Of a DNA stretch of 46,368 nt, positions 12,754 to 45,620 are shown one piece after another. The stretch is from Methylophaga sp. (lineage in GTDB: Bacteria; Pseudomonadota; Gammaproteobacteria; Nitrosococcales; Methylophagaceae): assembly GCA_002696735.1 (NCBI GenBank), contig NZSL01000012.1, forward strand, positions 210,875 to 257,242, given 5' to 3'. Position 1 is the stretch's first letter; each line of letters starts with the position of its first letter. Both the position numbers and the translations under genes were made by a program. A model generated the notes under the pieces. That model was given only the letters and a program-made list of their open reading frames with translations, was not told where the DNA came from and did not search any database.

Positions 12754-14811
12754 GTGGAAAGCACTTTTGAAGAACAACATCATCCAGCGATTATGATTGA
12801 AGGTATCCAGCCCTTCGGTTGTTTAATCCGTTTTGATGCTGATTTACAGAAAGTTTTCCAGGTCAGTGCAAATTTGCAGAATATATTGGGTGTTTCAATA
12901 GATGTAGCCCTGATGTCGTCACCAAGAGATATTCTGGGTGGCAAATTACAACACCGCTTGCAGCAGGCGCTCACTAAAAACTCACGTCTTTCCGCGGCAT
13001 TCACTATTAATCGTCAGGTAAATGGATCATATCAGCGATTTCATGTGATGGCTTACCGTTACGATGTATCCATCGTCGTGGAATTTGAGCCACTCTCCCG
13101 TTCCGGAGAACAGCGTTTATTGCCAATCGTTAATGAATGGTTGAGTCGCTTGGCACAGGTTCAGCAAATTGGTCAGTTACAACAAATGCTTGTGCAAAGT
13201 GTGCAGGCCGTTACGGGCTATGACCGCGTGTTGTTATGTCAGTTTGATTCGCACTGGCAACGCATTGCGATCGCGGAAGAGTGCCGTGACCCTGCCAGAA
13301 GTTTATTGAATTACCGGTTTCCTGCCAGTGATATTCCCAGCATAGTAAGAGATCGGTATGCAGTTAATCCATTGCGTCACGTACCCGATGTCAATGCCAA
13401 GGTCGTGCCATTGGTGCCGACTTCAGACTCAATCAATTTGCCAACACCGGATTTAACGGCTGGTGTACTCAGAGCATTATCCCCATTTCACTACCAGTAT
13501 CTGTGCGAGATAAATATCGGCGCTTCATTATCCATCGCGGTAACAGATGAACAACGGCTATGGGGCATTCTGACCTGTCATCATTTCGCTGCAAGTGATA
13601 TCTCGGCAGCGGAACGCGATGCTGCCTTTAATCTTGTGCAAATGGCATCTCAACGATTATTTTTATTGCAAGCCCGACAACAGGCCCAGTTTCTGGAGCA
13701 GGTCTTAAATAGCCGTGAACTGCTCTCAGCGGAACGTGACAAAGTTGTCCAGCCGACAACATTGCTCGATAAATATGGCAAAAACTGGATGGAGTTGTTT
13801 AATAGCAGTGGCATCGCTTTGTTATATCAGGAGCAAGTGCGGTGTGCCGGGGAAACTCTGGATAACTTTGAGCTGGACCTTGTCGGTAAATGGCTTACAG
13901 AAAATATCGGCCATAAGGCCTGCTGGGCGTGTGACCATCTGTCAAGGAGCCCATTGGATAGCCTGGTTAACCTACGAAAACGGGCAGGTCTATTGGCCGT
14001 GCCTTTACCAATAGAGCACAACCAATCCGGATGGCTTTTGTTGTTTCGTGACGCTGAGAAAATGCAATGCAGTTGGGTTGGGAAAAAACAGAGAATAGAA
14101 GCTGAGACATCGAATCCGTTGCATCGTGTCGAAGAGCGTGGTCATGAAATTTGGGTAGAAACCATTGAGAGTGAAGCTCAACGCTGGTCAGCAAATGAAC
14201 AGCATGCAGCGCAGGATTTGGCTGAAGATTTGGCAGTAGCGATTACGGTGCACCAAATCAACCGACTCAACAAAGAATTACAACGTGCTAATAAACAGCT
14301 TAAAGAGATTGCACATACGGATACGTTGACCCGAATCTGGAATCGCTATCGAATGGAATTGGCTATTGATGCCGAATTGGCCGCAGCCGAACGTTATGGA
14401 CACCCATGCTCGGTATTATTGTTTGATGTTGACCGCTTTAAATCGGTCAATGATACCTATGGTCATGATATGGGCGATCAGGTTTTAACCCGGCTTGCAG
14501 AGGAAGTGCAATCAAAACTGCGAGTCAGTGACCATTTAGGTCGCTGGGGCGGTGAAGAATTTATTGTCCTGGCATCGCATAACGCATTGGATGAAGCCAT
14601 GGCGCTGGCAGAACGTCTGCGTCAACATATTGAAATGGTTGAGTTCGAAACGGTCGGGAAAATTACCGTCAGTATCGGTGTCGCTCAAGCAATAACAGGC
14701 GATGAAAGTCGCAGGCGTTTGTTAGAAAGAGCCGATCAGGCTATGTATCGTGCCAAGCAATCAGGCCGTAATCGTGTTGAAGCGGCAAGTGCCGAATTGT
14801 CTACATCCTGA
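12754..14811 (+). CDS. Phytochrome-like PAS-GAF-PHY protein with GGDEF output, lacking canonical chromophore Cys
   Basis: This 685-residue cytoplasmic protein has the bacteriophytochrome layout. A PAS segment contains IEGIQPFG (about 15-22). The GAF domain has PASDIP at 190-195, SPFHYQYL with H246, and CHH at 275-277. A PHY region follows at about 330-505, then a linker helix. The GGDEF domain carries GGEEF at 599-603 and the inhibitory-site RVSD at 590-593. It should make cyclic di-GMP. The biliverdin-attachment Cys upstream of the PAS motif is absent, and the GAF Cys used by plant-type phytochromes is replaced by F245. C23 and C251 are the nearest cysteines. The PHY tongue keeps SWVG, but PRxSF is not recognisable. 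GTG is the only usable start and GGAG lies eight bases upstream. Light sensing is therefore uncertain. Confidence 0.85.
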   Translation: MESTFEEQHHPAIMIEGIQPFGCLIRFDADLQKVFQVSANLQNILGVSIDVALMSSPRDILGGKLQHRLQQALTKNSRLSAAFTINRQVNGSYQRFHVMAYRYDVSIVVEFEPLSRSGEQRLLPIVNEWLSRLAQVQQIGQLQQMLVQSVQAVTGYDRVLLCQFDSHWQRIAIAEECRDPARSLLNYRFPASDIPSIVRDRYAVNPLRHVPDVNAKVVPLVPTSDSINLPTPDLTAGVLRALSPFHYQYLCEINIGASLSIAVTDEQRLWGILTCHHFAASDISAAERDAAFNLVQMASQRLFLLQARQQAQFLEQVLNSRELLSAERDKVVQPTTLLDKYGKNWMELFNSSGIALLYQEQVRCAGETLDNFELDLVGKWLTENIGHKACWACDHLSRSPLDSLVNLRKRAGLLAVPLPIEHNQSGWLLLFRDAEKMQCSWVGKKQRIEAETSNPLHRVEERGHEIWVETIESEAQRWSANEQHAAQDLAEDLAVAITVHQINRLNKELQRANKQLKEIAHTDTLTRIWNRYRMELAIDAELAAAERYGHPCSVLLFDVDRFKSVNDTYGHDMGDQVLTRLAEEVQSKLRVSDHLGRWGGEEFIVLASHNALDEAMALAERLRQHIEMVEFETVGKITVSIGVAQAITGDESRRRLLERADQAMYRAKQSGRNRVEAASAELSTS

Positions 14812-31521: not shown

Positions 31522-31872
31522 TGCGGATGACGACTAATGCACCGCAATTGAACAAGTAAATAACCATATTAAACATATGGATTAAATCATTGTTTTTACG
31601 TTACTTATTAGCTTCTGCTGAAATAGCTTTTTTGCTAATACTTGACCCCGTCAGATGAAGTCAGGAAAATTCTCCTATTTGGATAACTTCAAGCCAGTGA
31701 AAGTAGAAGCAAAACCAGCAAAATTGATCTGGATCACGGATTTGAAATCATCAACCTAGTTGTTTTGCGGTAAAATTCATTAGCTGGAACGTTAGGCAGA
31801 ATGAAATGGGGTTCTGTTTTCTTAATAAAGAAACAGTGAAAGAGTTTTCATGAAAGAGAAGGTGTGATCGCT
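31522..31872 (+). promoter_or_regulatory. Intergenic control region upstream of ccoN
   Basis: This AT-rich stretch has no gene. At its left end are two weak stem-loops that may end the ihfB transcript: CCATAT-TAAAC-ATATGG at 31564-31580, and TATTAGC/GCTAATA repeats around a T6 run near 31606-31642. An FNR/Anr-like site sits at 31724-31737 and a possible -10 (TAAAAT) at 31771-31776. That -10 would place the FNR site near -52 from the transcription start, not the usual -41.5, so the promoter assignment is tentative. A degenerate TTGAA-N3-ATCAA lies at 31742-31754. Confidence 0.5.
31724..31737. promoter_or_regulatory. FNR/Anr-type binding site upstream of ccoN
   Basis: TTGATCTGGATCAC matches the FNR consensus TTGAT-N4-ATCAA at 9 of 10 positions. 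It lies about 135 bases before the ccoN start. cbb3 oxidase genes are classically activated under low oxygen by FNR/Anr/FixK, so context and sequence agree. Confidence 0.8.
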
Positions 31873-34184: not shown

Positions 34185-35112
34185 TAACAATAAAAACCCA
34201 AATGAATGTCCTGATACCGGACATGAATGGGATGGCATCAGAGAATTGACTAATCCACCGCCGCGTTGGTGGACAATAGCTTTATACCTGAGCGGTTTGT
34301 TAGTGCTGGTGTATTTTATTCTTTATCCTTCTCTGCCATTAGTGAATGGAAACACCGAAGGTATTCTGGGCTGGACGCAGATCAATGAATACAAGGATGA
34401 CATGGCAAAAATTCAGGAAAAACGTGCACCTTTTGAAGATCGTATTGCTGCAATGTCAGCAGAAGAAATTCTCGAAGATGATGAGCTGTTACGCTATGCA
34501 GTAGGTTCAAGCAAAGTGCTTTATGGTGACAATTGTGCCGCTTGTCATGGTGTGGGTGGATATCCTCAACCTGGTTCGGGATATCCTATCCTGGCTGATG
34601 ATGACTGGTTGTACGGTGGAACGGTAAACAAGATCATTGAAACCCTGGCCAAAGGTCGTCAAGGAATGATGCCAGCACATGCTGAGCTGTTAACCGAAGA
34701 AGAAGTGGATGGTCTGGTTGAATTCGTGTTGAGTAACTCGGCTGGTGAAGCCACCGAAGCGCAATGGAAACTTTACAACGAAAAAGGTTGTGTAGCATGC
34801 CATGGTGCAGATGCTAAAGGCATTCAGCAATTAGGCTCGGCTAACTTATCAGATAAAGTCTGGCGCTTTTCTGGGGAACCGGATGAAATTCGCCATACGA
34901 TTCTTCACGGCGTAAATGCTGCGAATGATCCAAAGACTCGTATTGCAGTAATGCCAGCCTGGAATGAAAAGCTTGCCGTACGTTTGGAAGCAGAAGAATA
35001 CGGTGATGATCCTGAAGAATATTATGAAGGTGATGAAACTCAACGGCTTTCAGAAACTGAAATCAAAAAACTGGCTGTTTATGTCCATCAACTCGGTGGT
35101 GGCGTAGAGTAG
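34177..35112 (+). CDS. ccoP: cbb3-type cytochrome c oxidase subunit III (di-heme c)
   Basis: This protein of about 311 residues is membrane anchored by an N-terminal helix (about residues 32-52, after PPPRWW) and carries two periplasmic cytochrome c domains. The heme sites are C120-A-A-C123-H124 and C205-V-A-C208-H209. The axial Met candidates lie in GMMPAH and VMPAWN. It accepts electrons from the cytochrome bc1 branch and hands them to CcoO. ATG codons at 34174 and 34177 are both possible; GGAGA ending at 34170 favours the second. A 39-residue membrane protein follows after 46 bases, then a strong terminator. Confidence 0.96.
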   Translation: MADNNKNPNECPDTGHEWDGIRELTNPPPRWWTIALYLSGLLVLVYFILYPSLPLVNGNTEGILGWTQINEYKDDMAKIQEKRAPFEDRIAAMSAEEILEDDELLRYAVGSSKVLYGDNCAACHGVGGYPQPGSGYPILADDDWLYGGTVNKIIETLAKGRQGMMPAHAELLTEEEVDGLVEFVLSNSAGEATEAQWKLYNEKGCVACHGADAKGIQQLGSANLSDKVWRFSGEPDEIRHTILHGVNAANDPKTRIAVMPAWNEKLAVRLEAEEYGDDPEEYYEGDETQRLSETEIKKLAVYVHQLGGGVE

Positions 35113-35158
35113 ACTCAAGCTAACGTAATTACGAGTCGATAGATTCAAGGAGATTGAT

Positions 35159-35278
35159 ATGGGTTTAGATGCTGTAGCGATTGGTGCGATTGTAAGTCTT
35201 GTATTGACAATTGTTGTGATTGGCGTGATTGCCTACAAGGTCGTTAAAAACATGGAAGACAGTTCCAACGATAATTGA
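35159..35278 (+). CDS. Small single-pass membrane protein after ccoP (candidate cbb3 subunit)
   Basis: A 39-residue ORF that gene callers may miss. The ATG is preceded by a near-ideal ribosome-binding site, AAGGAG, six bases upstream. Residues 5-26 form one hydrophobic helix (AVAIGAIVSLVLTIVVIGVI), followed by a short tail with KVVKN and an acidic end. It lies between ccoP and the terminator of ccoNOQP, so it is co-transcribed with the oxidase. Pseudomonas stutzeri cbb3 has a comparably sized helix subunit, CcoM, bound to CcoN and CcoP; this protein may be an equivalent, but I see no decisive sequence match. It could alternatively be an assembly helper. Existence is well supported; function is inference. 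Confidence 0.8.
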   Translation: MGLDAVAIGAIVSLVLTIVVIGVIAYKVVKNMEDSSNDN

Positions 35279-35292
35279 CAGAGCGACGAATC

Positions 35293-35321
35293 AAAAAAAG
35301 CCGATTTTGTCGGCTTTTTTT
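35293..35321 (+). terminator. Strong intrinsic terminator of the ccoNOQP operon
   Basis: AGCCGA-TTTTG-TCGGCT forms a GC-rich stem flanked by seven A on the left and seven T on the right, so it may act in both directions. It lies 14 bases after the stop of the small membrane protein, confirming that ORF as the last gene of the transcript. Confidence 0.93.
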
Positions 35322-35364
35322 GTACGTCAAAAGCTAAATTAGTAAATGCTTATATTATTTGGCG

Positions 35365-35373
35365 TGGTATAAT
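35365..35373 (+). promoter_or_regulatory. Extended -10 promoter of ccoG
   Basis: TGGTATAAT combines a perfect -10 hexamer (35368-35373) with the TG of an extended -10. No good -35 is visible at 16-18 bases upstream, which the extended form can tolerate. No FNR-like site was found next to it. The transcript would start about 25 bases before the GTG of ccoG. Confidence 0.6.
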
Positions 35374-35406
35374 TCCATCGGATAAGTTGCCTGTGAGGTA
35401 CAAACT

Positions 35407-36828
35407 GTGTCGGAACAACTGAAGTCAGCAGAGCTCAATATTAATGACATCTATGATGAGGTCTCTGACTGGCATGTTAATGCCGGTGGCACTAAGGTCG
35501 TAGCAAAGCGGATGTCTGGTCGTTTCAGACGCCTTAAATGGTTTGGTATGTCGGTCTGGTTAATTTTCTTTATTGGGCCTTACCTACGCTGGAACGGCCA
35601 ACAGGCAATTCTTTTCGATATCCCCAATCGTCAATTCAACTTTTTAGATATCACCATTTTCCCACAAGATATCTGGATGCTTTCCCTTACATTATTGTTC
35701 TTTGCCATATTGTTGGCGGCAGTAACCAGTATTGCGGGTCGGGTATTCTGTGGTTATTTCTGTTTTCAAACTGTCTGGACCGATGTTTTTACCTTTATCG
35801 AAACCCGTATTGAAGGTGATACACCTCAAAAAGCGATGAAGTTTAAAAACTCACCGAATACCATCAGCAAAGTCTCCCGCATTGTTCTGAAACATGCTTT
35901 ATGGTTGTCAATTGCCTTACTGACTGGCGTTACCTTTGCTGCCTGGTTTACCGATGCGTATCAACTCTGGTATGACTATTTTCATCTGCAGGCGTCATTA
36001 GCTGCCTGGATAGTCCTGGCTATGTTTACTATTGGAACATATATCTTTGCTGGATTTATGCGTGAGCAGGTCTGTTTCTGGCTATGCCCATATGCCCGTC
36101 TGCAAGGAGTTATGTATGATCAGGATACCGTGCTGCCAGCATATGATGCCGAACGTGGCGAACCCCGTGGTAAGCTTAAAAAAGGTGCTATGGACTCTAG
36201 TAAAGGCAGCTGTATCGATTGCAAGGTGTGTGTTGCAGTATGTCCTACCGGAATTGATATACGTAAGGGGCAACAAGAGGGATGTATCACCTGTGGTATG
36301 TGTATTGATGCCTGTGACAGTATTATGGACAAAACCAATCAGCCTCGTGGTCTGATTCGTTATGCGTCATACAAGGATTTACATCACAATGCTCAACCGG
36401 CCCCGTTATATAAACGTCCGAGAGTTATTATTTATTCATTTATATTGATGATGGCAATGTCTGGCGTTGGTTATGGATTTGCCACGCTCTCGTCGACAGA
36501 GTTTCAGGTTATTCACAATCGACAACCGGTATTTGTTCAGCTAAGTGATGGATCTATTCAGAACCGTTACACACTTAAAATGCTTAACAAAACCAATAAA
36601 ACCATGGAAGTTCAGTATGGCATCAGTGGTTTGGAAGGCGCCACTTTGCATGGTATTGACCACAGCGTTATTATTGAACCCGGTAAGGTTATTCCATTAC
36701 AGGCACTGGTTAGAGTGCCAGATGGAGAACTCAACACAGAACTTGAACACCTGACTTTTATTGCTAATGTCGTTTCCAACCCGGGTGTTTCTGTCCAGTA
36801 TGAAAGTGTCTTTATGGGGCCGAAATGA
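35407..36828 (+). CDS. ccoG: cbb3 oxidase assembly iron-sulfur protein (CcoG/RdxA/FixG)
   Basis: This 473-residue inner-membrane protein assists assembly of cbb3 oxidase, in known cases by reducing Cu(II) for delivery. Membrane helices are in the first 340 residues (about 50-70, 90-115, 155-180, 195-215, 335-355). Two [4Fe-4S] ferredoxin-type motifs lie near residues 269-302: CIDCKVCVAVCPTG and CITCGMCIDACD. A conserved CGYFCFQTVW precedes them. A periplasmic immunoglobulin-like FixG C-terminal domain ends the protein. The GTG start has GAGGT seven bases upstream. It heads ccoG-ccoH-ccoI-ccoS, and ccoH overlaps its stop by four bases. Confidence 0.95.
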   Translation: MSEQLKSAELNINDIYDEVSDWHVNAGGTKVVAKRMSGRFRRLKWFGMSVWLIFFIGPYLRWNGQQAILFDIPNRQFNFLDITIFPQDIWMLSLTLLFFAILLAAVTSIAGRVFCGYFCFQTVWTDVFTFIETRIEGDTPQKAMKFKNSPNTISKVSRIVLKHALWLSIALLTGVTFAAWFTDAYQLWYDYFHLQASLAAWIVLAMFTIGTYIFAGFMREQVCFWLCPYARLQGVMYDQDTVLPAYDAERGEPRGKLKKGAMDSSKGSCIDCKVCVAVCPTGIDIRKGQQEGCITCGMCIDACDSIMDKTNQPRGLIRYASYKDLHHNAQPAPLYKRPRVIIYSFILMMAMSGVGYGFATLSSTEFQVIHNRQPVFVQLSDGSIQNRYTLKMLNKTNKTMEVQYGISGLEGATLHGIDHSVIIEPGKVIPLQALVRVPDGELNTELEHLTFIANVVSNPGVSVQYESVFMGPK

Positions 36829-37331
36829 TGGCAATCTCACAAGAAAATAATCAAGCACTGAAAAATCCATGGGTCTTAGGTTTTCTCGCTTTTTTGTGCA
36901 CGTTTGTCACGATGAATATCATATTTATCTACCTGGCATTTAAGTCGCCACCAAATCTGGTCGTCGATAATTACTATGAGCGAGGCAAGGCTTACGCTGA
37001 GAAAGATATGCAGCTTGAACAGGAAAATAAGCTCGGCTGGAGCGGGGTTATTATGGTTCCGGCAAATAACCGGGTCAATCAGCGTCAGGCTTATGAAGTG
37101 CTGATCCAAGGAAAAAATTCTACAACTGTAGAATTGGATTCTGTCAGCTTATTCGCTTATCGCCCTTCAGATCAGCGTGAAGATTTTTCGGTTGAAATGA
37201 ATCCTATTGGTCTGGGACGTTATGGCGCGGATATTGAGTTTGGCTTGCCAGGTAACTGGGACATAATAGTTGAAGCCAAACGTGGAGATGATGAGTTTCT
37301 GATCACCCGCAGAATTTATATTGATCCTTAA
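36825..37331 (+). CDS. ccoH: cbb3 oxidase assembly protein CcoH (FixH family)
   Basis: This 168-residue protein has one N-terminal membrane helix (about residues 16-38, NPWVLGFLAFLCTFVTMNII) followed by a conserved DNYYERGKAYAE element. The beta-rich periplasmic part that follows is typical of FixH. The family is needed for stable cbb3 oxidase and interacts with the copper-delivery proteins. Two ATG codons (36825 and 36828) are possible; the first overlaps the ccoG stop as ATGA. The copper-ATPase gene ccoI follows after 25 bases. The length and order match other gammaproteobacterial ccoGHIS clusters. Confidence 0.9.
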   Translation: MMAISQENNQALKNPWVLGFLAFLCTFVTMNIIFIYLAFKSPPNLVVDNYYERGKAYAEKDMQLEQENKLGWSGVIMVPANNRVNQRQAYEVLIQGKNSTTVELDSVSLFAYRPSDQREDFSVEMNPIGLGRYGADIEFGLPGNWDIIVEAKRGDDEFLITRRIYIDP

Positions 37332-37356
37332 TTATTTAAAAGCAAGTTGATAGTTT

Positions 37357-39813
37357 TTGTCTGAATCTGCCGCGCAAACTAAAAAAAGCGAATGTTTTCA
37401 TTGTGGATTAATTGTCAAAAATCCCGGTGAATTTACTGCACAAATAAATTCCCTTCCACATGACTTTTGTTGTCATGGCTGCAAAATGGCATGCCAGACA
37501 ATCTACGCAGCGGGACTACAGGGTTTTTATAATAAAACGCCAGAAGGCGAATCACTTGCCCCCCCGCCTGAAACAGCTAATGATTTTCATGCCTATGATA
37601 TTGATGAAATTCAGGCAGATTATGTTGATGATCTAGGCGATAAACGCACCATTTACCTGTTAATCGAGGGGATACACTGTGCTGCCTGCGTTTGGTTAAT
37701 TGAACATGCACTGCATAAATTACCGGGTGTGTTGGAGGCAGATGTAAATTTGACAGCAAAACGCTGTCGAATTCGCTGGGATAATCGCGAAACTTCCTTA
37801 TCGATTTTAATGCAACATTTAGCCAAGCTTGGTTATGCAGCTGTTCCTTTCGACCCTGAAACCGCAGAGGGAGCACTGGCTAAACGACATCGTGGTCTTG
37901 TCTATCGAATGGCTTTTGCCGGTTTTGCCATGATGAACCTGATGTGGGTTTCCATCGCATTGTATTCCGGTGCAGCAGAAGACGAGTTCCGCAATCTGTT
38001 TCATTGGGTGGGCTTTTTTATTGCCACACCAACATTGCTTTATTCAGGTTATCCATTTTTTCGCAATTCAATAAGTGGATTACGCAGCCGTTATCTGACC
38101 ATGGATTTACCGATTGCTATCGGTGCTACTGCAACCTATATTTACTCAACGTATATCACCTTCACTGGATCGTTAGATGGCGAAGTCTTCTTTGATACGG
38201 TAGTGAATTTTATCTTTGTGATTCTTATTGGCCGATATTTGGAAGCGCTTTCCAAGCGGAACGCGCTATCCGCAACGCGGCGCATGCTGGAGTTACAACC
38301 GAAACTGGCAACCCTAATTGAAGCGGGTGTCCAGAAAACAGTGCCTATCCGTTCGGTAAAAGCAGGGGATTTGGTGCTGGTCCGACCCGGTGAGAATATA
38401 CCAGTCGATGGCATTGTGACCGAGGGTGAAAGTGCCGTCGATGAATCAATGTTGACTGGCGAATCACAACCGATTCGCAAACAACCTGACGATTCCGTAG
38501 TGGCCGGCAGTATTAATGGGGAAGGCGCTTTTGTTGTCAGAGCAAAACATGTGTTACGCCATACTGCTCTGGCAAAAATCATTGCGCTGATGGATGAGGC
38601 GCAAACCTCTAAAGCGCCTATTCAAACGCTGGCAGACAAAATCGTTCCCTGGTTTGTGGTAATTACCTTGACTCTTGCTACGTTGACCTTTATGTATTGG
38701 GTGGGAAGTGATTTTGAAAAAGCATTATTGGCTGCAGCCTCGGTATTAGTAGTGACCTGTCCCTGCGCTTTTGGCATGGCAACCCCAATGTCGATTGCGG
38801 TTGCCAGTGGTGTGGGGGCTAGCAATGGTATTTTGATCAAACAAGGTATTGCATTAGAGAAGTTATCCAGTGTGACTCATTATGTGTTTGATAAAACAGG
38901 CACATTGACTGAAGGTAAATTAAGGCTGGTTAAACGGTTCACCGCGGAAGGCATTTCCCCACAAACGGTCCTACAGATTGCGGCGTCAGCAGAGCAACAG
39001 TCCGAACACGGCATTGCAAAAACCATTATCTCAGCCGCTCACCAAGAGAATCTGCCTATATTGGAGATTTCCGGGTTTAATGCTTCTCCGGGAAGAGGGG
39101 TGGAAGCGGATATTGAGGGACAGAAAATTCTGGTAGGTACGGCGGAATGGATGACGCTGCATGATATAAAGCTAAATGGCGAATGGCAATCACAGGTCAA
39201 TCAGCTGGAACAACAAGGGATCAGCGGTGTATTTGTGGCGCGTGAACAAAAACTGATAGGCATTTTAGGCTTATTCGATACGTTACGAGATGACGCAAAA
39301 AACGTGATTGCTGATATGTTGGCGCAGGGGCTTAAAGTCACTGTATTAAGTGGTGATCGTCAACTGGTAGTGGATTCGGTTACCGCAGATTTAGGCAATA
39401 TCCAGCGGTTGGCCGAAGTATTGCCTGCTGAGAAACGGCAGGTGATTCAGAGATTACAGCAACAAGGCGATTTTGTTGCAATGGTGGGTGATGGCATTAA
39501 TGATTCACCCGCATTAATTCAGGCTGATGTGGGTATAGCTCTGGCTTCGGGGACCGATGTCTCTATTGAAAGTGCCGATATTATCCTATCGCATAATCAA
39601 CTGAGTCAGGTCGCTTTGGCAAGGCAGTTGGCTGCCCGGACATTACGCACCATTCGGCAGAATATTGTATTATCCATAAGTTATAACGTGATTATGGTCC
39701 CATTAGCTATGATGGCCTTAGTCAGTCCCTTACTGGCAGCAATCACGATGCCGATTAGTTCGTTACTTGTCATTGGTAATGCTGCCAGGATTAGTCGAAT
39801 AGTAAAGAGGTAG
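37357..39813 (+). CDS. ccoI: Copper-transporting P-type ATPase for cbb3 assembly (CcoI/FixI)
   Basis: This 818-residue inner-membrane P1B-ATPase exports copper to the periplasm for oxidase maturation. The N-terminus has a cysteine-rich metal-binding element (CFHCGL and FCCHGCKMACQ), then a heavy-metal domain with CAAC near residues 108-111. After the first helices come the actuator TGES (in LTGESQPIRK), the transmembrane CPC in VVTCPCAFGMATP (about 467-475), the phosphorylated Asp in DKTGTLTEG (about 512) and GDGINDSPAL near 710. The only usable start is TTG at 37357, just after an in-frame stop, and its ribosome-binding site is poor; expression may rely on coupling to ccoH. CcoI-type pumps serve assembly rather than resistance. 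Confidence 0.95.
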   Translation: MSESAAQTKKSECFHCGLIVKNPGEFTAQINSLPHDFCCHGCKMACQTIYAAGLQGFYNKTPEGESLAPPPETANDFHAYDIDEIQADYVDDLGDKRTIYLLIEGIHCAACVWLIEHALHKLPGVLEADVNLTAKRCRIRWDNRETSLSILMQHLAKLGYAAVPFDPETAEGALAKRHRGLVYRMAFAGFAMMNLMWVSIALYSGAAEDEFRNLFHWVGFFIATPTLLYSGYPFFRNSISGLRSRYLTMDLPIAIGATATYIYSTYITFTGSLDGEVFFDTVVNFIFVILIGRYLEALSKRNALSATRRMLELQPKLATLIEAGVQKTVPIRSVKAGDLVLVRPGENIPVDGIVTEGESAVDESMLTGESQPIRKQPDDSVVAGSINGEGAFVVRAKHVLRHTALAKIIALMDEAQTSKAPIQTLADKIVPWFVVITLTLATLTFMYWVGSDFEKALLAAASVLVVTCPCAFGMATPMSIAVASGVGASNGILIKQGIALEKLSSVTHYVFDKTGTLTEGKLRLVKRFTAEGISPQTVLQIAASAEQQSEHGIAKTIISAAHQENLPILEISGFNASPGRGVEADIEGQKILVGTAEWMTLHDIKLNGEWQSQVNQLEQQGISGVFVAREQKLIGILGLFDTLRDDAKNVIADMLAQGLKVTVLSGDRQLVVDSVTADLGNIQRLAEVLPAEKRQVIQRLQQQGDFVAMVGDGINDSPALIQADVGIALASGTDVSIESADIILSHNQLSQVALARQLAARTLRTIRQNIVLSISYNVIMVPLAMMALVSPLLAAITMPISSLLVIGNAARISRIVKR

Positions 39814-39816
39814 GCT

Positions 39817-40023
39817 ATGGAAGTCATTTATGGACTTTTACCCGGTATGTTATTGCTGGGCCTGGTGGGTGTTGCAGTGTTTTTCTGGGCTGTTCGAAGT
39901 GGTCAGTACGACGATATGGATGGCGCCGCTAACCGGGTATTGATGGATGATGATAACGATCCTGAAGAGCTCGAAGCGGACGAAGAACCACAAGTAAAGA
40001 ATGAAGCCCGCAAGGATGAATAG
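39817..40023 (+). CDS. ccoS: cbb3 oxidase maturation protein CcoS
   Basis: This 68-residue protein has one membrane helix at about residues 5-27 (PGMLLLGLVGVAVFFWAV), then RSGQYDDMDG, the CcoS signature, and a long acidic tail. CcoS is required for insertion of heme b and copper into CcoN in Rhodobacter. The ATG follows the ccoI stop by three bases and has AGAGG seven bases upstream. Its last 23 bases overlap the start of the binding-protein gene that follows, so the downstream pair is joined to the assembly operon. Confidence 0.92.
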   Translation: MEVIYGLLPGMLLLGLVGVAVFFWAVRSGQYDDMDGAANRVLMDDDNDPEELEADEEPQVKNEARKDE

Positions 40024-41179
40024 GCTTGTTATTCTGTGTTGCGTTGGCCTTTTGCTGACGAAAAACGTCCTGGCTGAAAATATACATGTTGGCATGAGTA
40101 GTGCTTTGACTGGTCCACTAGCTGAAATGGGATTGTCAATGCAAGCCGGAATAAACGCTTTTTTTTCCAAAGTAAATGATCAGGGAGGCATTCAGGGCAA
40201 TCGTATTGAACTATTGGCACTGGATGACTCCTACGAACCAGTTCTGGCAGCCTCTAATATGCGGCAGCTTATTACTGAGCATAATGTCGTGGCGGTACTG
40301 GGTAATGTTGGAACACCAACGGCAGTTGTCAGTGTTCCGATTGCGGAACAATCTCAGGTTGCTTTGGTCGGTGCATTTTCCGGCGGTGAAGTGCTAAGGC
40401 GAGATCCCCCTAGTCGTTATATCATTAATATTCGGCCGGGATATCGACAGGAAGTCGCAACGTTGATTTACGGTTTATTGAATGCGGGCATTCAAGCCGA
40501 TGAGATCGCTTTTTTTACGCAGCAGGATAGTTATGGCAATGCGGTATATCAGTCAGCTGCGCTGGCCTTGCAAGCCAAAGGGTTTTATCGGGCGGAGTAC
40601 CTGCCCCATGCCTATTATTCTCGCAATACAATGAATGTCGAAAGTGCTGTTGCGACGATTCTCAAAGCAAAAAAAACACCCAAAGTTATTCTGATGGCTG
40701 GCAGTTATGCCCCATCGGCCAAGTTTATAAAACTATTGCATGCAGATAAGCCGGACATGTGGTTTGTGAATGTGTCATTTGTCGGTAGCCATGTACTGGA
40801 GCAATCTCTTAAAGGGATTGATGCAAATGTTGTGGTCAGTCAGGTTGTGCCGGAAGTCGATGCGGATCTGCCGATCGTCAATGAATATCGGCAGGCTTTG
40901 GCGCAATATGATAAAAACTTGCAGCCCAATACGGTCTCTCTGGAAGGCTACATCGTGGCAAAAGTATTTTGCCAGGCATTAAAACGTATTGATGGTCCAG
41001 TAACACGACAGTCAGTTGTTGATGCTCTTTATGATCTGGAGGATTGGGATATTGGTCTGGAGACCCAGAGCAGTTTTGCCAGTAATACCTCTGCTGTAGG
41101 CAACAAAGTCTGGCTCAGCAAACTTGAAAACGGTTCGTTTAGATCCTTTGAATGGCGTGACTTTGAGTTACCACAGTAG
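40001..41179 (+). CDS. Periplasmic type I substrate-binding protein (branched-chain amino acid/amide type)
   Basis: This 392-residue exported protein has a signal peptide ending at about residue 25 (LTKNVLA). The mature part is a two-lobed Leu/Ile/Val-type binding fold with IHVGMSSALTGPLAEMG at its start and NDQGGIQGNRIELLALDD. EHNVVAVLGNVGTPTA forms part of the ligand cleft, and TVSLEGYIVAKVF lies near the C-terminus. No ABC permease or ATPase gene is nearby. Instead, a membrane GGDEF-EAL sensor follows 15-25 bases downstream, suggesting that the loaded protein docks to that sensor, by analogy with TorT and TorS. ATG codons at 40001 and 40016 are both possible; either overlaps ccoS. The ligand is unknown; amino acids, amides or short organic acids are typical. 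Confidence 0.85.
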   Translation: MKPARMNRLVILCCVGLLLTKNVLAENIHVGMSSALTGPLAEMGLSMQAGINAFFSKVNDQGGIQGNRIELLALDDSYEPVLAASNMRQLITEHNVVAVLGNVGTPTAVVSVPIAEQSQVALVGAFSGGEVLRRDPPSRYIINIRPGYRQEVATLIYGLLNAGIQADEIAFFTQQDSYGNAVYQSAALALQAKGFYRAEYLPHAYYSRNTMNVESAVATILKAKKTPKVILMAGSYAPSAKFIKLLHADKPDMWFVNVSFVGSHVLEQSLKGIDANVVVSQVVPEVDADLPIVNEYRQALAQYDKNLQPNTVSLEGYIVAKVFCQALKRIDGPVTRQSVVDALYDLEDWDIGLETQSSFASNTSAVGNKVWLSKLENGSFRSFEWRDFELPQ

Positions 41180-41203
41180 CTTCATCTACAGGATGTGAGC
41201 AAA

Positions 41204-44200
41204 ATGAACAGGGAAAATATGTTTAAAAACTGGAGCATCCGTGCACTGCTGCACTTCTGGGCAGTCATTACCGTATTGATGGTATTGCTAATGGCGGCAA
41301 TAGCCATGTTCAGCCATCATCATTACACCAAAAATCAACTCCAGCTTACCGAACAAGTGTTTCCGCTGGTAGATAATGCTCGACAAATTACGACCAGCGC
41401 GGCCGCCTTTATTACCAGGCAGAAGCAGATTATCAGTGCCCAAAATGCTGATGAACTTGCCAGTGTTGCTAAACGAGCGCCGCTTGAGGCTGAATTCGAA
41501 CAAACCTGGCAACGTTTACTGGTAAGTATGCAGGAGCTGGAAATTTCACCAGAGCTCACCACTGTTTTAACTGATTATTATCAACAGTTTCTCGAAACTG
41601 ATAGTCAGTTACTGCAGCAAATGCAGGTTCAGCACCAATTATCTGAACAGCTTGAACAACGTACCGAAAGTGTGTCCTTGCTGGGAGAAGAAATTCAGGA
41701 AATTGCCGAAGCGATTACCGGCAAAATTGATTTGACCCTGACCAGACAAATCCAGTCCTTACGTCCTCCTGCATTAGTTGAACAGTCTGATACAACTACG
41801 TTAATTGATAATTACAGTGCCGTAGAACGAAGCAGCTATTCTTTGATGCTGAATGTGTTGCGTATCAGTATGTTAAGTCAGAAAATTCGTGAAACACAAA
41901 ATCAGGATTTGCTGCTGAGTATCAGGGAAAACGATATTAGGGAACAAGAGGCGATGTTGCGTAATGCTATTTTGGTAATCAAGCAGCATCTACAAAATTA
42001 CCCTGATTTGATGCTACAGGCCGATAGATTACAACAACAGATTGATAGCTTTATTCACTTGGTAGTAGACAATGATAATTCGGTTTATCAATTGCGTATC
42101 CGACAAATAGAGGCATATGAACAATCCCAAATCGTGCAACAGCAGGGGTTGGATATATTGGAAATATTGATGCTGAATCTGAATAACCTTTCCGCCAGAG
42201 TAGGGGAGCAGGGGCTGGTCAGAACGCAGGCCTCAGCCGCACTGGCCAAGACAGCCAAATGGTGGATGATTATAAGTTGTTTGATTATTTCGTTAGGTAT
42301 TACCGGTTTTGTACTCACCATGACAGCACGTATTAATCAGCCGATGCAACGCTTACGTAAAGCGATGCATTCCTTGTCTGCTCAGAATTTTGATACCCGG
42401 ATGCCAACAGATAATGGTCAAAGTGAATTTAACTTACTTGCCAATGACTTTAATGTTTTTGCTGCGCAAACCCAGAGTCTGATTGAGACACTGGATGAGA
42501 CCAGACACTCACTGGAGGTGCGGGAAACACGGATTCGTGCCATTCTTAATGGTGTTCCGGAAGCTATTCTGGCGCTTCAGGCCGATGGAACAATCAGTTC
42601 CTGTAATCCGGCAGCAGAAAAAATATTAAAGGCCAGTGAAAGCCAATTGGCTGGCCAGAAAATATTGCAGTTCTTTGCACAAACGGAATCGATTCACTCG
42701 CTTGGTGATATTGAGCAGCTGCAAAAAGACAATCGTGAGTTTGAGGGTTTGAACTGGTTTGGTGAGTCATTTTCCATGTGGGTCTCGCTCAGTCCTTTAT
42801 CAGAGTTTGATGATGATATCTGGGTTTGCGTGATATCGGATATCAGCTCATGGAAAAGAACCAAACTGGCATTAGTCCAAACCAGTAATGAATTAAATGC
42901 CATTCTTGAAAATGCCATGGTAGGTATTGCTTTTATCAAGAATCGCCAGATTATTCGTGTAAATAATAAATTCGAACAATTGTTTCTGTTTTCCCGAGAG
43001 GATATTGAAGGCAAAAGCACTTTATGTCTGCATCCCAGCGAAGAAGCTTTTGAACGCTTTGGCGAACAGGCTTACAGCACATTGTCTGAAGCAGAAAACT
43101 TTGAAGCTCAAGTTGAAATGATCCGTGCTAATGGCGAGAAATTCTGGTGTGCAGTCGCCGGTCAGGTAATTGATCCGGTCAATCCAGCAGAGGGATCCAT
43201 CTGGCTGTATGAAGATGTGACTCATCAACGTCAGAATGAAGAGCGACTGACTAGATTAGCCAGCAGCGATATTCTGACTGGTTTACCTAACCGAGGTGTA
43301 TTTAAAGATCGCCTTGAACATGCCATACACAAAGCCAAACGACAAAATGGTCGACTTGCCGTGTTCTTTCTCGACTTGGATCATTTCAAACATATCAACG
43401 ATTCATTGGGCCATAAAGCCGGAGACATCTTGTTGTGCGAAGTGGCACGGCGCATCCGTTCCTGTGTCAGGGACAGCGATACGGTTGCGAGATTAGGTGG
43501 GGATGAATTTACCGTTATTCTGGAAGATATCACCTCAGCTCAGTATGTCGGCAGAGTGGCTGAAAAAATTCTCAGCACGACAGCTTTGCCATATATGTTG
43601 GATAACATTGAAGTGAATATCAGTCCGAGTATCGGGATAAGCTTATATCCTGCAGACGGACGCGATGTCGATATGCTGGTGCGTAATGCCGATGCAGCGA
43701 TGTACTACGCCAAGGGGAGTGGTCGTAATAATTTTCAGTTCTATTCCTCAGAAATGAATGCCCAGGCATCACAGCGACTGGCAATGGAAACCGGTTTGCG
43801 TCGTGCAGTTGAATTGCAGGAGTTTTATCTGCAGTTTCAACCGCAGATTGATCTGGAAACGGGCCGGGTGGCAGGTGCCGAGGTGTTATTACGTTGGCAT
43901 ACAGAGCAATGGGGAGATGTTTCACCAGCGATTTTTGTACCCGTGTTAGAAGATACCGGTCTGATAAGTACGGTAGGAGAATGGGTGTTAAGAAAAACCT
44001 GTGAAGCGTACATGGCAAACCAGCAATATTTGCCCGATGACTTTTTAATGGCAGTCAATCTTTCGGGCCGTCAATTTAAAGGCAATTTACTGGTCAACTT
44101 TATTCGCAATCTGCTGGAACAAACCGGAATGCCTGCCAAAAATCTGGAATTGGAGATTACCGAAAGTCTGTTAATGGAAAACACTGAGCAAGCTGTTCAG

Positions 44201-44560
44201 ACCTTACGAGAATTGAGTTTGCTTGGTATTACCCTGGCCATTGACGACTTTGGCACCGGCTATTCGTCGTTGTCATATTTGAAGCAGTTCCCGCTCAATG
44301 TGCTAAAGATCGACCGAACTTTCGTTCGCGATGTGACAGAAGACAGTGATGACGCGGCTATCGTAAATGCCATTCTGGCCATGTCGAACAGTCTGGCCTT
44401 GGAAGTTGTAGCTGAAGGCGTTGAGACTGCAGAGCAGCTGGCATTTTTACGTAAGAGTCAGTGCAAACGGGCACAAGGGTTTTATTTCAGCAAGGCCATC
44501 GACCTGAGCGACCTTATGGATTATATAAAACTAACTGATCAGGATGAGCGGGCCGTATAA
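41204..44560 (+). CDS. Membrane sensor with HAMP, two PAS, GGDEF and EAL domains
   Basis: This inner-membrane protein of about 1118 residues makes and/or degrades cyclic di-GMP. One helix lies at about 14-35. A mostly helical periplasmic sensor of about 315 residues follows, then a second helix at about 352-374 and a HAMP linker. Two PAS domains start at about 440 and 560. The GGDEF domain is intact (RLGGDEF near 765). The EAL domain has EVLLRW near 893 in place of EALLRW, and its metal-binding and catalytic motifs remain (NLSGRQF, ELEITES, DDFGTGYSS, EGVE). Both activities are therefore possible. Start codons at 41195 (GTG), 41204 and 41219 are candidates; AGGA ten bases before 41204 is acceptable. 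The periplasmic domain likely contacts the binding protein encoded just upstream. Confidence 0.9.
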   Translation: MNRENMFKNWSIRALLHFWAVITVLMVLLMAAIAMFSHHHYTKNQLQLTEQVFPLVDNARQITTSAAAFITRQKQIISAQNADELASVAKRAPLEAEFEQTWQRLLVSMQELEISPELTTVLTDYYQQFLETDSQLLQQMQVQHQLSEQLEQRTESVSLLGEEIQEIAEAITGKIDLTLTRQIQSLRPPALVEQSDTTTLIDNYSAVERSSYSLMLNVLRISMLSQKIRETQNQDLLLSIRENDIREQEAMLRNAILVIKQHLQNYPDLMLQADRLQQQIDSFIHLVVDNDNSVYQLRIRQIEAYEQSQIVQQQGLDILEILMLNLNNLSARVGEQGLVRTQASAALAKTAKWWMIISCLIISLGITGFVLTMTARINQPMQRLRKAMHSLSAQNFDTRMPTDNGQSEFNLLANDFNVFAAQTQSLIETLDETRHSLEVRETRIRAILNGVPEAILALQADGTISSCNPAAEKILKASESQLAGQKILQFFAQTESIHSLGDIEQLQKDNREFEGLNWFGESFSMWVSLSPLSEFDDDIWVCVISDISSWKRTKLALVQTSNELNAILENAMVGIAFIKNRQIIRVNNKFEQLFLFSREDIEGKSTLCLHPSEEAFERFGEQAYSTLSEAENFEAQVEMIRANGEKFWCAVAGQVIDPVNPAEGSIWLYEDVTHQRQNEERLTRLASSDILTGLPNRGVFKDRLEHAIHKAKRQNGRLAVFFLDLDHFKHINDSLGHKAGDILLCEVARRIRSCVRDSDTVARLGGDEFTVILEDITSAQYVGRVAEKILSTTALPYMLDNIEVNISPSIGISLYPADGRDVDMLVRNADAAMYYAKGSGRNNFQFYSSEMNAQASQRLAMETGLRRAVELQEFYLQFQPQIDLETGRVAGAEVLLRWHTEQWGDVSPAIFVPVLEDTGLISTVGEWVLRKTCEAYMANQQYLPDDFLMAVNLSGRQFKGNLLVNFIRNLLEQTGMPAKNLELEITESLLMENTEQAVQTLRELSLLGITLAIDDFGTGYSSLSYLKQFPLNVLKIDRTFVRDVTEDSDDAAIVNAILAMSNSLALEVVAEGVETAEQLAFLRKSQCKRAQGFYFSKAIDLSDLMDYIKLTDQDERAV

Positions 44561-45165
44561 GTCAACATTGGACGTTCTTCAGGGTGAAGTCGGATAGTGA
44601 GACCAATATTCGGGTAATGCCAGATTTGTGCCGGACTTTCTTCTGCTTCATTCTGAATTTGTTCGGGTTCTCCAAAACGCGTGTGTACCATTTCCTCATC
44701 GAGACGTACTGAAGGAATATAAGTAAGCACTATTGCCGGAGCAGCTAATAAAGCCTGCTTATCATCAAAAGCAGGATCATAGCGCCGAGCTCCACTGGGT
44801 TGGAGTTTTGCCGAAACCGCTCTTGCCGCCATCGCTTGTAATTTCTCTTCAGGAAGCTGAAGATTAAGGACAGTACGTGCTGAGAGTCCACCAAGATTAA
44901 TGGATTCAAAAAATACTTCAGCAGAAATATCGTCGTTTTCAGAAATAAAAAGAGCCGCTTCCCCGGCTTCACGCCATAACTGTTGAATTTCCCCGTAAGT
45001 AGTGGTGCCTAAGTGCACACCCATCACTTGAATTTGGTTATCAGGCATCACCGTCACTTCCCAAGGTTTGGGGGCGGTGGGTTGTGGAGAGGGGACCAGC
45101 ATTAATGCAGCAATCGCAATAATGACTAAAGTCGTACCAAGTAAAAATTTGAGCAATATACGCAT
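44539..45165 (-). CDS. Membrane-anchored protein of unknown function, linked to dtd
   Basis: This 208-residue protein begins with a hydrophobic segment (about residues 5-24, LKFLLGTTLVIIAIAALML) that may be a signal anchor, then a Pro-rich stretch. A periplasmic domain with VMGVHLGTTTYGEIQQLW and a C-terminal RFGEPEQI...IWHYPNIGLTI follows. I recognise no characterised family; a similar conserved hypothetical gene sits beside dtd and pip in Pseudomonas, as I recall. The gene follows dtd by 11 bases and is probably its co-transcribed partner. Its 3' end overlaps the 3' end of the convergent GGDEF-EAL gene by 22 bases, so the two transcripts must run into each other. Confidence 0.7.
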   Translation of the reverse strand: MRILLKFLLGTTLVIIAIAALMLVPSPQPTAPKPWEVTVMPDNQIQVMGVHLGTTTYGEIQQLWREAGEAALFISENDDISAEVFFESINLGGLSARTVLNLQLPEEKLQAMAARAVSAKLQPSGARRYDPAFDDKQALLAAPAIVLTYIPSVRLDEEMVHTRFGEPEQIQNEAEESPAQIWHYPNIGLTIRLHPEERPMLTYTARSS

Positions 45166-45176
45166 AAATATCCGAA

Positions 45177-45620
45177 TTAGTTAACTTGTAACCAGAAAGT
45201 GACTGGCCCGTCATTGGTCAGTGAAACCTGCATATCAGCAGCAAATTGTCCGGCTTCAACCGTGACAGTTTGCAGCCGTGCCTGTGCCAGCAGATAATCA
45301 AACAATTGTTTGCCCTGTTCGGGCGGTGCAGCAGGCGTGAAACTGGGGCGATTGCCTTTACGGGTATCAGCGGGCAAGGTAAATTGCGGTACCAGCAGTA
45401 AATCACCTTTTATATCGAGCAAGCTTAAATTCATTTTGTCGTCGGCATCGCTGAATACTCGATAGTTTAAAATGCGTTTTAACAATCTGTCAGCAACAGC
45501 TATCGTGTCGGTTTTTTCTATACCAATCAATACCAGCAAACCCTGGCCGATTTGAGCAATGGTTTGATTTTCATTGATAGTGACATCCGCCTGACTGACA
45601 CGTTGTAGCAATGCAATCAT
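45177..45620 (-). CDS. dtd: D-aminoacyl-tRNA deacylase
   Basis: This 147-residue cytoplasmic dimeric enzyme removes D-amino acids (and mischarged Gly) from tRNA, protecting translation. It begins [15 protein letters not shown] and has the two active-site signatures of DTD: the SQ-type loop, seen here as [19 protein letters not shown], and the C-terminal GP motif [11 protein letters not shown]. The length is typical (145-150). The ATG overlaps the stop of pip by four bases (ATGA), so pip and dtd are translated together, with the unknown membrane protein third. Confidence 0.95.

Follow-up and report, generated by a model that had tools for sequence, protein, structure and literature searches.

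A periplasmic binding protein and a GGDEF-EAL sensor behind ccoS in Methylophaga as a probable two-part receptor with a TorS-type ectodomain

Introduction

The systems closest to the locus described here are TorT-TorS, which senses trimethylamine N-oxide in Escherichia coli and Vibrio, NspS-MbaA of Vibrio cholerae and the autoinducer-2 receptor LuxP-LuxQ. The locus itself is a gene pair coding for a type I periplasmic binding protein (PBP) and a membrane sensor with GGDEF and EAL domains, the domains of cyclic diguanosine monophosphate (c-di-GMP) turnover. It lies behind the cbb3 oxidase assembly genes ccoGHIS in a 46,368-nucleotide stretch of Methylophaga sp. DNA (assembly GCA_002696735.1, contig NZSL01000012.1, positions 210,875 to 257,242), the whole of which we call the window. 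TorT is a soluble type I binding protein of the PF13407 type, and NspS belongs to another PBP class, the PotD-like proteins. TorS, whose partner is TorT, has been described as an all-helix sensor built from two four-helix bundles stacked on each other (PMC8534201), and TorT has been reported as bound to TorS in cells (PMC3795677). For NspS, which binds polyamines, the published account is that MbaA acts as a phosphodiesterase when unbound and as a cyclase when NspS is bound (PMC8967002). LuxP is likewise described as a co-receptor of the membrane sensor LuxQ, whose ectodomain is a double PDC (PMC8534201).

The window locus resembles TorT-TorS in that a binding protein gene stands directly beside the gene of a sensor whose ectodomain is, in the model, all-helical with the TorS fold. 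It differs in its output, which is GGDEF-EAL here and a hybrid kinase there, and in its PBP, which matches PF13458; moreover, a search of this genome with the TorS sensor family PF21689 (TorS_sensor_domain) gave no match at E 0.001. With NspS-MbaA it shares the combination of a periplasmic binding protein and a membrane GGDEF-EAL enzyme that is bifunctional in MbaA and predicted to be so here, although by family the PBP is not PotD-like and is closest to 4kv7, a Rhodopirellula baltica structure titled 'possible leucine/isoleucine/valine-binding protein'. That title gives no signaling role, and no paper on the structure was found when the open-access literature was searched by entry code. A ligand-binding co-receptor of the LuxP kind is what we propose for the PBP here, the helical ectodomain setting its partner apart from LuxQ. 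We found no description of the PBP-sensor pair in the open-access literature, a search whose scope left most subscription journals outside.

Results

The binding protein and the distal part of the sensor are lost together

The PBP and the sensor very probably form one two-part receptor, with the PBP docking at the tip of the ectodomain and shifting the balance between GGDEF and EAL, because relatives that have lost the PBP have also lost the sensor tip. We examined 57 Methylophaga-type genomes (hereafter the family), of which 25 carry a PBP orthologue at an E value below 1e-20. Forty-two family sensors were tabulated, 20 from PBP-bearing and 22 from PBP-less genomes; open reading frames (ORFs) under 690 amino acids (genomes G020, G028, G030, G032, G068, G074, and G079) and genomes without a sensor ORF were left out. 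Aligned ectodomain length was preferred as the measure to the distance between the first and second transmembrane segments (TM1 and TM2), since that distance shifts with the hydropathy cut-off used (324-349 residues with a PBP and 304-319 without, among long ectodomains).

Every sensor from a PBP-bearing genome had an ectodomain of 307-318 amino acids (317 in the window sensor), and Gly176 and Asn246 were present in all 20, one of which comes from a genome whose PBP is broken (G031). In the PBP-less genomes the ectodomain never exceeded 292 amino acids (22 of 22). It measured 278-292 amino acids in 17 of them, 178 in G009 and G010, and 8-26 in G017, G018, and G026, where TM1 runs almost directly into TM2. 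None of the 22 had kept Gly176, and a single one, G064, had kept Asn246. G064 is the sister of the PBP-bearing G069 (100 in the Shimodaira-Hasegawa-like approximate likelihood ratio test); it looks like a recent PBP loss, since its tip loop is gone and the rest of its distal stretch is still 54% identical to that of G069. Weak remnants of both ends of a PBP (E 4e-4 to 0.02) were detected between ccoS and the sensor in G017.

The enzymatic half appears to survive while the input half changes, since all 40 family sensors that reach the GGDEF, RxxD, and EAL columns retain those residues. The PAS, GGDEF, and EAL domains are in frame in G017 and G026, the two that were scanned of the three ectodomain-deleted sensors. 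The window sensor is a predicted bifunctional enzyme, with the catalytic residues of EAL, the GGDEF motif, and the RxxD site all present.

On a tree of the cytoplasmic domains, the PBP state requires at least four changes, and the tip glycine also requires four. Across independent pairs on well-supported branches, the two characters agreed in three of three. If regain is impossible, seven PBP losses are counted on the tree as drawn with a midpoint root.

The ectodomain model matches the TorS fold

A scan of the whole protein gave no Pfam match at E 0.01 over sensor residues 40-356. When the predicted structure of this segment was searched with Foldseek, all six matches at E values up to 1e-3 were TorS, four of them from TorS-TorT complexes; the best, 3o1h_A, had an E value of 7.3e-7 and a template modeling score (TM-score) of 0.69 by target and 0.60 by query. 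The model thus places the ectodomain in the TorS-type structural class. The link to TorS rests on the fold, because useful sequence links to PDB chains or to Pfam were lacking: the best PDB match (E 0.0033) was a stretch of a chemotaxis protein, the Pfam matches were scattered and weak, and both were set aside. PF21689 was not found in the window sensor at E 0.01, nor among the matches listed for 48 ectodomains (25 of 44 families).

Gly176 and Asn246 would lie at the membrane-distal tip, as judged from their position near helix turns in the model and from TorS. In genome G240 (L240, L265), a histidine kinase with PF21689 directly follows a PF13458 PBP that was matched by the family profile at E 1.2e-78, and L240, one of the five PF21689 sequences used in the profile-profile comparison below, is a possible bridge between TorS proper and the pairing described here.

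The window PBP matches PF13458 (Peripla_BP_6) at E 4.6e-46 and, judged by eye, has a signal peptide. Its closest solved relative by sequence is 4kv7 (E 2.3e-86), on which its model (predicted local distance difference test score [pLDDT] 88.1) superposes with a TM-score of 0.94. The entry titles of its fold neighbors name amino acids, aromatic acids, and urea, among other ligands.

The pairing recurs outside the family with other outputs

We scanned named genomes with the PBP alignment and obtained 183 relatives, the best 80 of which provide the locus counts below. Seventeen of these 80 loci were assigned to the family by their cco genes and 63 lie outside it, in records labeled Vibrio, Shewanella, Halomonas, Magnetococcales, Desulfobacterales, Verrucomicrobia, Cloacimonadota, and others, many of them metagenome-assembled genomes. 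An ectodomain profile built from the family alone matched the gene immediately after the PBP in 40 of the 63 non-family loci; after three rounds of iteration it did so in 53 of the 63 and in 69 of all 80, and an ectodomain gene stood somewhere in the locus in 72. The TM1-TM2 distance in 48 non-family sensors was 324-372 amino acids (median, 346). Among 52 non-family C-terminal parts we found MCPsignal in 28, HATPase_c in 17, HisKA in 11, GGDEF in 4, and EAL in 2; five cut or short C termini were excluded, and four of the 52 sensors (those of L181, L202, and L207 and the first of L194) do not lie directly downstream of the PBP. At L194 there are three binding proteins, of which two related ones stand in tandem and the third lies on the opposite strand, along with two ectodomain-bearing kinases with HisKA, HATPase, and receiver motifs.

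Both Gly176 and Asn246 were present in all 70 ectodomains that reach those columns, 55 of them from outside the family. This count combines 48 of 48 in the ectodomain alignment (15 of the family) with 22 of 22 further ectodomains. The alignment held the window and 47 of 49 near-full-length ectodomains, L188 and L222 having been dropped as near-copies of L185 and L219; these two were checked in an additional set of 26 rows, four of which were too short to reach the columns.

The association was also visible in an even draw of 229 genomes of the class. A strong PBP, defined as one scoring over 430 bits (a cut chosen after the list had been seen), occurred in nine of them (13 at E 1e-60), the ectodomain in seven, and both in six, a co-occurrence with a P value of 3e-9 when kinship is ignored. 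The seventh ectodomain genome was the PBP-less G014, of this genus, in which the match covers positions 6-135 alone.

The loss of the PBP together with the tip, the recurrence of the pairing upstream of varied outputs, and the TorS fold strongly support the proposal of the initial annotation that the PBP is a sensor co-receptor of the TorT-TorS kind.

Position behind ccoS and the tie to respiration

A ccoS match was present in 52 of the 57 family genomes (33 of 35 in one subset and 19 of 22 in the other). The PBP directly followed ccoS in all 25 PBP-bearing genomes, the window included, and the sensor came next in all 24 whose contigs reach far enough; in G063 the PBP is split across two contigs. 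Of the 27 PBP-less genomes that have ccoS, 21 carry the sensor immediately after it, 3 (G028, G030, and G068) carry a broken sensor or a remnant of one, and 3 (G024, G025, and G073) showed no sensor after ccoS. The sensor, which follows ccoS with or without a PBP, is therefore the stable neighbor, and the PBP is the variable member of the pair. At L099 (G020) and L111 (G032) both the PBP and the sensor are broken and the adjacent ccoG-H-I remain open, which looks like joint decay of the pair.

We also scored the distance from the ccoS stop to a conserved Gly-Met codon of the PBP in 22 relatives, leaving out two broken PBPs. It was exactly 67 bases in the window and 11 of the relatives and 70-108 bases in the remaining 11, among PBPs that are mostly 45-50% identical to that of the window. 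An order found in every PBP-bearing family genome, with identical spacing in half of those scored, is more than chance, and the gap leaves little room for a promoter. Because close spacing is kept across the family, shared expression of the pair with ccoGHIS is likely.

It is a separate question whether the pair has anything to do with respiration, as had been proposed from the gene order. An FNR-box-like site precedes ccoN (Table 1), and such a site, with zero to two mismatches, was found at -134 to -155 of ccoN in all 11 stretches that include the ccoN start, of 13 taken. We used this conserved site alone, since the window as a whole contains 53 sites with up to two mismatches against 41 expected. 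At the same threshold the window has no FNR-like site in the interval from ccoP to ccoG, and the assembly operon may be served by a promoter of its own.

The proposed link between respiration and c-di-GMP was not borne out more widely. No cco gene was present in the fetched stretch of 63 of the 80 PBP loci, some of these being short contigs; the 17 with cco genes all belong to this family. The association is also broken within the family, since G033 retains the sensor in a genome where neither ccoS nor ccoN has a match, and G024, G025, and G073 have ccoS and ccoN with no sensor at that place. Attachment of the pair to ccoS thus holds for every pair-bearing genome inside the family and for none of the fetched loci outside it. 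These exceptions, and the absence of an FNR-like site ahead of ccoG, are what one would expect if the pair were a co-receptor that came to sit behind a housekeeping operon by historical accident, unrelated to respiration. On the other side, the sensor stands behind ccoS, directly or via the PBP, in 45 of the 52 ccoS-bearing family genomes (24 with and 21 without the PBP), mostly with small gaps and despite gene loss and breakage nearby. We consider the chances of such an accident to be about even, and a functional tie to respiration is possible.

Alternative explanations

A different account of the co-loss is that the sensor acquired a new input, after which selection relaxed on the whole ectodomain, so that the PBP and the tip disappeared and the tip need not be a docking site. 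Most PBP-less sensors do retain a shorter ectodomain and so may sense something directly. We compared segments of the window clade with 13 PBP-less sensors of the same genus or with 16 sensors from PBP-bearing genomes of other genera (G004, G009, G010, G017, and G018, which are cut or have no distal stretch, were left out). Residues 261-352 were less alike in the PBP-less sensors (15% vs 28% identity), and residues 111-150 slightly so (28% vs 33%), as general relaxation would predict. Residues 41-110, however, were about equally conserved in both comparisons (32% vs 35%), as were HAMP-PAS (50% vs 51%) and GGDEF-EAL (72% vs 70%), and the sharpest fall was in residues 151-260 (12% vs 33%), the segment that contains both of the residues that are invariant across outputs and phyla. 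The divergence tied to PBP loss thus appears to be local, and we regard relaxation of the whole ectodomain as unlikely.

BPD_transp_2 is the permease family that is paired with PF13458 proteins. A transport role for the PBP was rejected, no permease of this family being encoded in the operon or nearby. The remark of the initial annotation that ABC (ATP-binding cassette) transporter genes are missing was tested for this family, and the genome's two BPD_transp_2 matches are both on another contig. General ABC ATPase homologues occurred in 7 of the 80 PBP loci. Although many sequence and fold relatives of the PBP are described as transporter binding proteins, it is most improbable that it serves an ABC importer encoded elsewhere and stands before the sensor incidentally, given that both of these permeases adjoin a different PBP (C10:67001), that their homologues appear in 1 of the 80 loci (L162, on the opposite strand), and that PBP loss accompanies loss of the sensor tip.

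Several observations weigh against a two-part receptor. In Pseudomonas aeruginosa, the results reported for AgtS and AruS include no interaction with the neighboring binding proteins (PMC11113362); adjacent genes alone are thus not enough, and it is the co-loss that carries the case. The three independent pairs on the tree cannot reach significance (p 0.25). Profile-profile comparison of the ectodomain with five PF21689 sequences was weak (probability, 44.6). No ectodomain gene was found directly downstream of the PBP in 11 of the 80 loci, two of which (L169 and L214) run out within some 300 bases. In the class sample the ectodomain was not found in three of the nine strong-PBP genomes (G153, G249, where the PBP lies at a contig end, and G266), nor at E 1e-8 in four more with weaker PBPs (211-322 bits). 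Finally, in a mirror-tree test of 31 loci, pairwise divergence of the PBP and of the ectodomain correlated weakly (Spearman, 0.12). Mean identity over these loci was 53% for the PBP and 21% for the ectodomain; such far better conservation of the PBP may reflect a single class of ligand and a contact that is small and fixed.

Features of the window locus

The gene order ccoG-ccoH-ccoI-ccoS-PBP-sensor, with overlaps or tiny gaps, was read correctly in the initial annotation, as ORF coordinates and Pfam and NCBIfam scans confirmed (Table 1). With its start at 40016 the PBP gene overlaps ccoS by 8 bases, and with the alternative ATG at 40001 by 23; the sensor starts at GTG 41195 or ATG 41204. By eye, the upstream ORFs on the plus strand are ccoN-O-Q-P, and convergent genes lie beyond the sensor. 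A terminator scan of 34900-45300 returned three sites, every one on the minus strand, and a promoter scan returned 13, fewer than in shuffled sequence (20.3), and was therefore set aside.

Table 1. Positions in the window of the genes, domains, residues, and regulatory site discussed in the text
Feature	Coordinates	Strand	Evidence
FNR-box-like site TTGATCTGGATCAC, 140 bases before ccoN (oxidase operon, not assembly operon)	31724..31737	+	1 mismatch
ccoG	35407..36828	+	ORF; FixG_C/Fer4_18
ccoH	36825..37331	+	ORF; FixH; 4-base overlap with ccoG
ccoI, P-type ATPase	37357..39813	+	E1-E2_ATPase, HMA, and ATPase-cat_bd; 25-base gap after ccoH
ccoS	39817..40023	+	FixS/TIGR00847 over cut-off; 3-base gap after ccoI
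Type I PBP, proposed ligand-binding co-receptor	40016..41179	+	Peripla_BP_6 (PF13458)
Sensor: TM1, ectodomain, TM2, HAMP, PAS, PAS, GGDEF, EAL	41195..44560	+	ORF, Pfam, hydropathy
Ectodomain (residues 40-356), all-helical in model, TorS fold	41312..42262	+	Predicted structure (pLDDT 88.3), Foldseek
Gly176 codon, invariant tip residue	41720..41722	+	Ectodomain alignments
Asn246 codon, invariant tip residue	41930..41932	+	Ectodomain alignments
GGDEF domain with RxxD motif	43262..43732	+	Pfam, alignment
EAL domain (EVL variant), catalytic residues kept	43796..44494	+	Pfam, alignment

The genome contains 62 GGDEF matches, so a GGDEF-EAL gene as such is not rare here; a second GGDEF protein is encoded inside the window at 12754-14811 on the plus strand (domain match C7:225185-225649). 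An ORF of 208 amino acids without a Pfam match, at 44539-45165 on the minus strand, has a 22-base tail-to-tail overlap with the sensor gene, and many relatives have it in the same place. Two family loci show other arrangements. At L103 (G024), ccoG is missing between ccoP and ccoH, with ccoH, ccoI, and ccoS present; at L112 (G033, where ccoS and ccoN have no match), the sensor lies beside ORFs matching genes of the window that are dtd- and pip-like, names given by eye.

Discussion

We conclude that the locus most likely encodes a TorS-fold, PBP-dependent receptor with a c-di-GMP output and that it belongs to a widespread set whose members differ in output. Gene order, overlaps, domains, co-loss, invariant residues, and the fold match of the model were observed; docking and its place, the position of the invariant stretch at the membrane-distal tip, the path of the signal, the sign of control, the ligand, and any benefit of a tie to respiration are inferences. 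By analogy with TorT-TorS and NspS-MbaA, the soluble PBP would bind a small ligand in the periplasm and, once loaded, would dock on the TorS-type helical ectodomain at its membrane-distal tip. This contact, or the change of the PBP between its open and closed forms, would then move helices through TM2, HAMP, and the two PAS domains, and this shift may alter the balance between c-di-GMP synthesis by GGDEF and its breakdown by EAL. The pair is probably translated with ccoGHIS, in which case the level of the pair in this family would track the cbb3 assembly factors.

The comparisons outside the family point to a cassette that has gone undescribed and that is, in our judgment, likely to be real: a dedicated PBP subfamily, with 4kv7 as an orphan ligand-binding part, that would dock through Gly176 and Asn246 at the tip of a TorS-fold ectodomain placed on varied outputs (chemoreceptors, histidine kinases, and GGDEF/EAL enzymes). 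In one family it would have become wired to cbb3 assembly, and there repeated PBP loss would have left one-part or input-free enzymes. Within the PBP clan, SBP_bac_3 alone is presented as studied in c-di-GMP networks in what a 2022 census sets out (PMC8846402), so binding-protein input to c-di-GMP signaling is thinly charted. The cassette suggests a likely role for 4kv7, a solved structure with no stated one. The paired glycine and asparagine could also help to separate, via the partner, binding proteins that act as co-receptors from those that serve transporters.

For Methylophaga and its relatives, the family genomes amount to a set of naturally occurring deletions that mark the putative docking site by residue, and the model is therefore directly testable. 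Their partner-less sensors show the decay of a two-part receptor into a one-part one.

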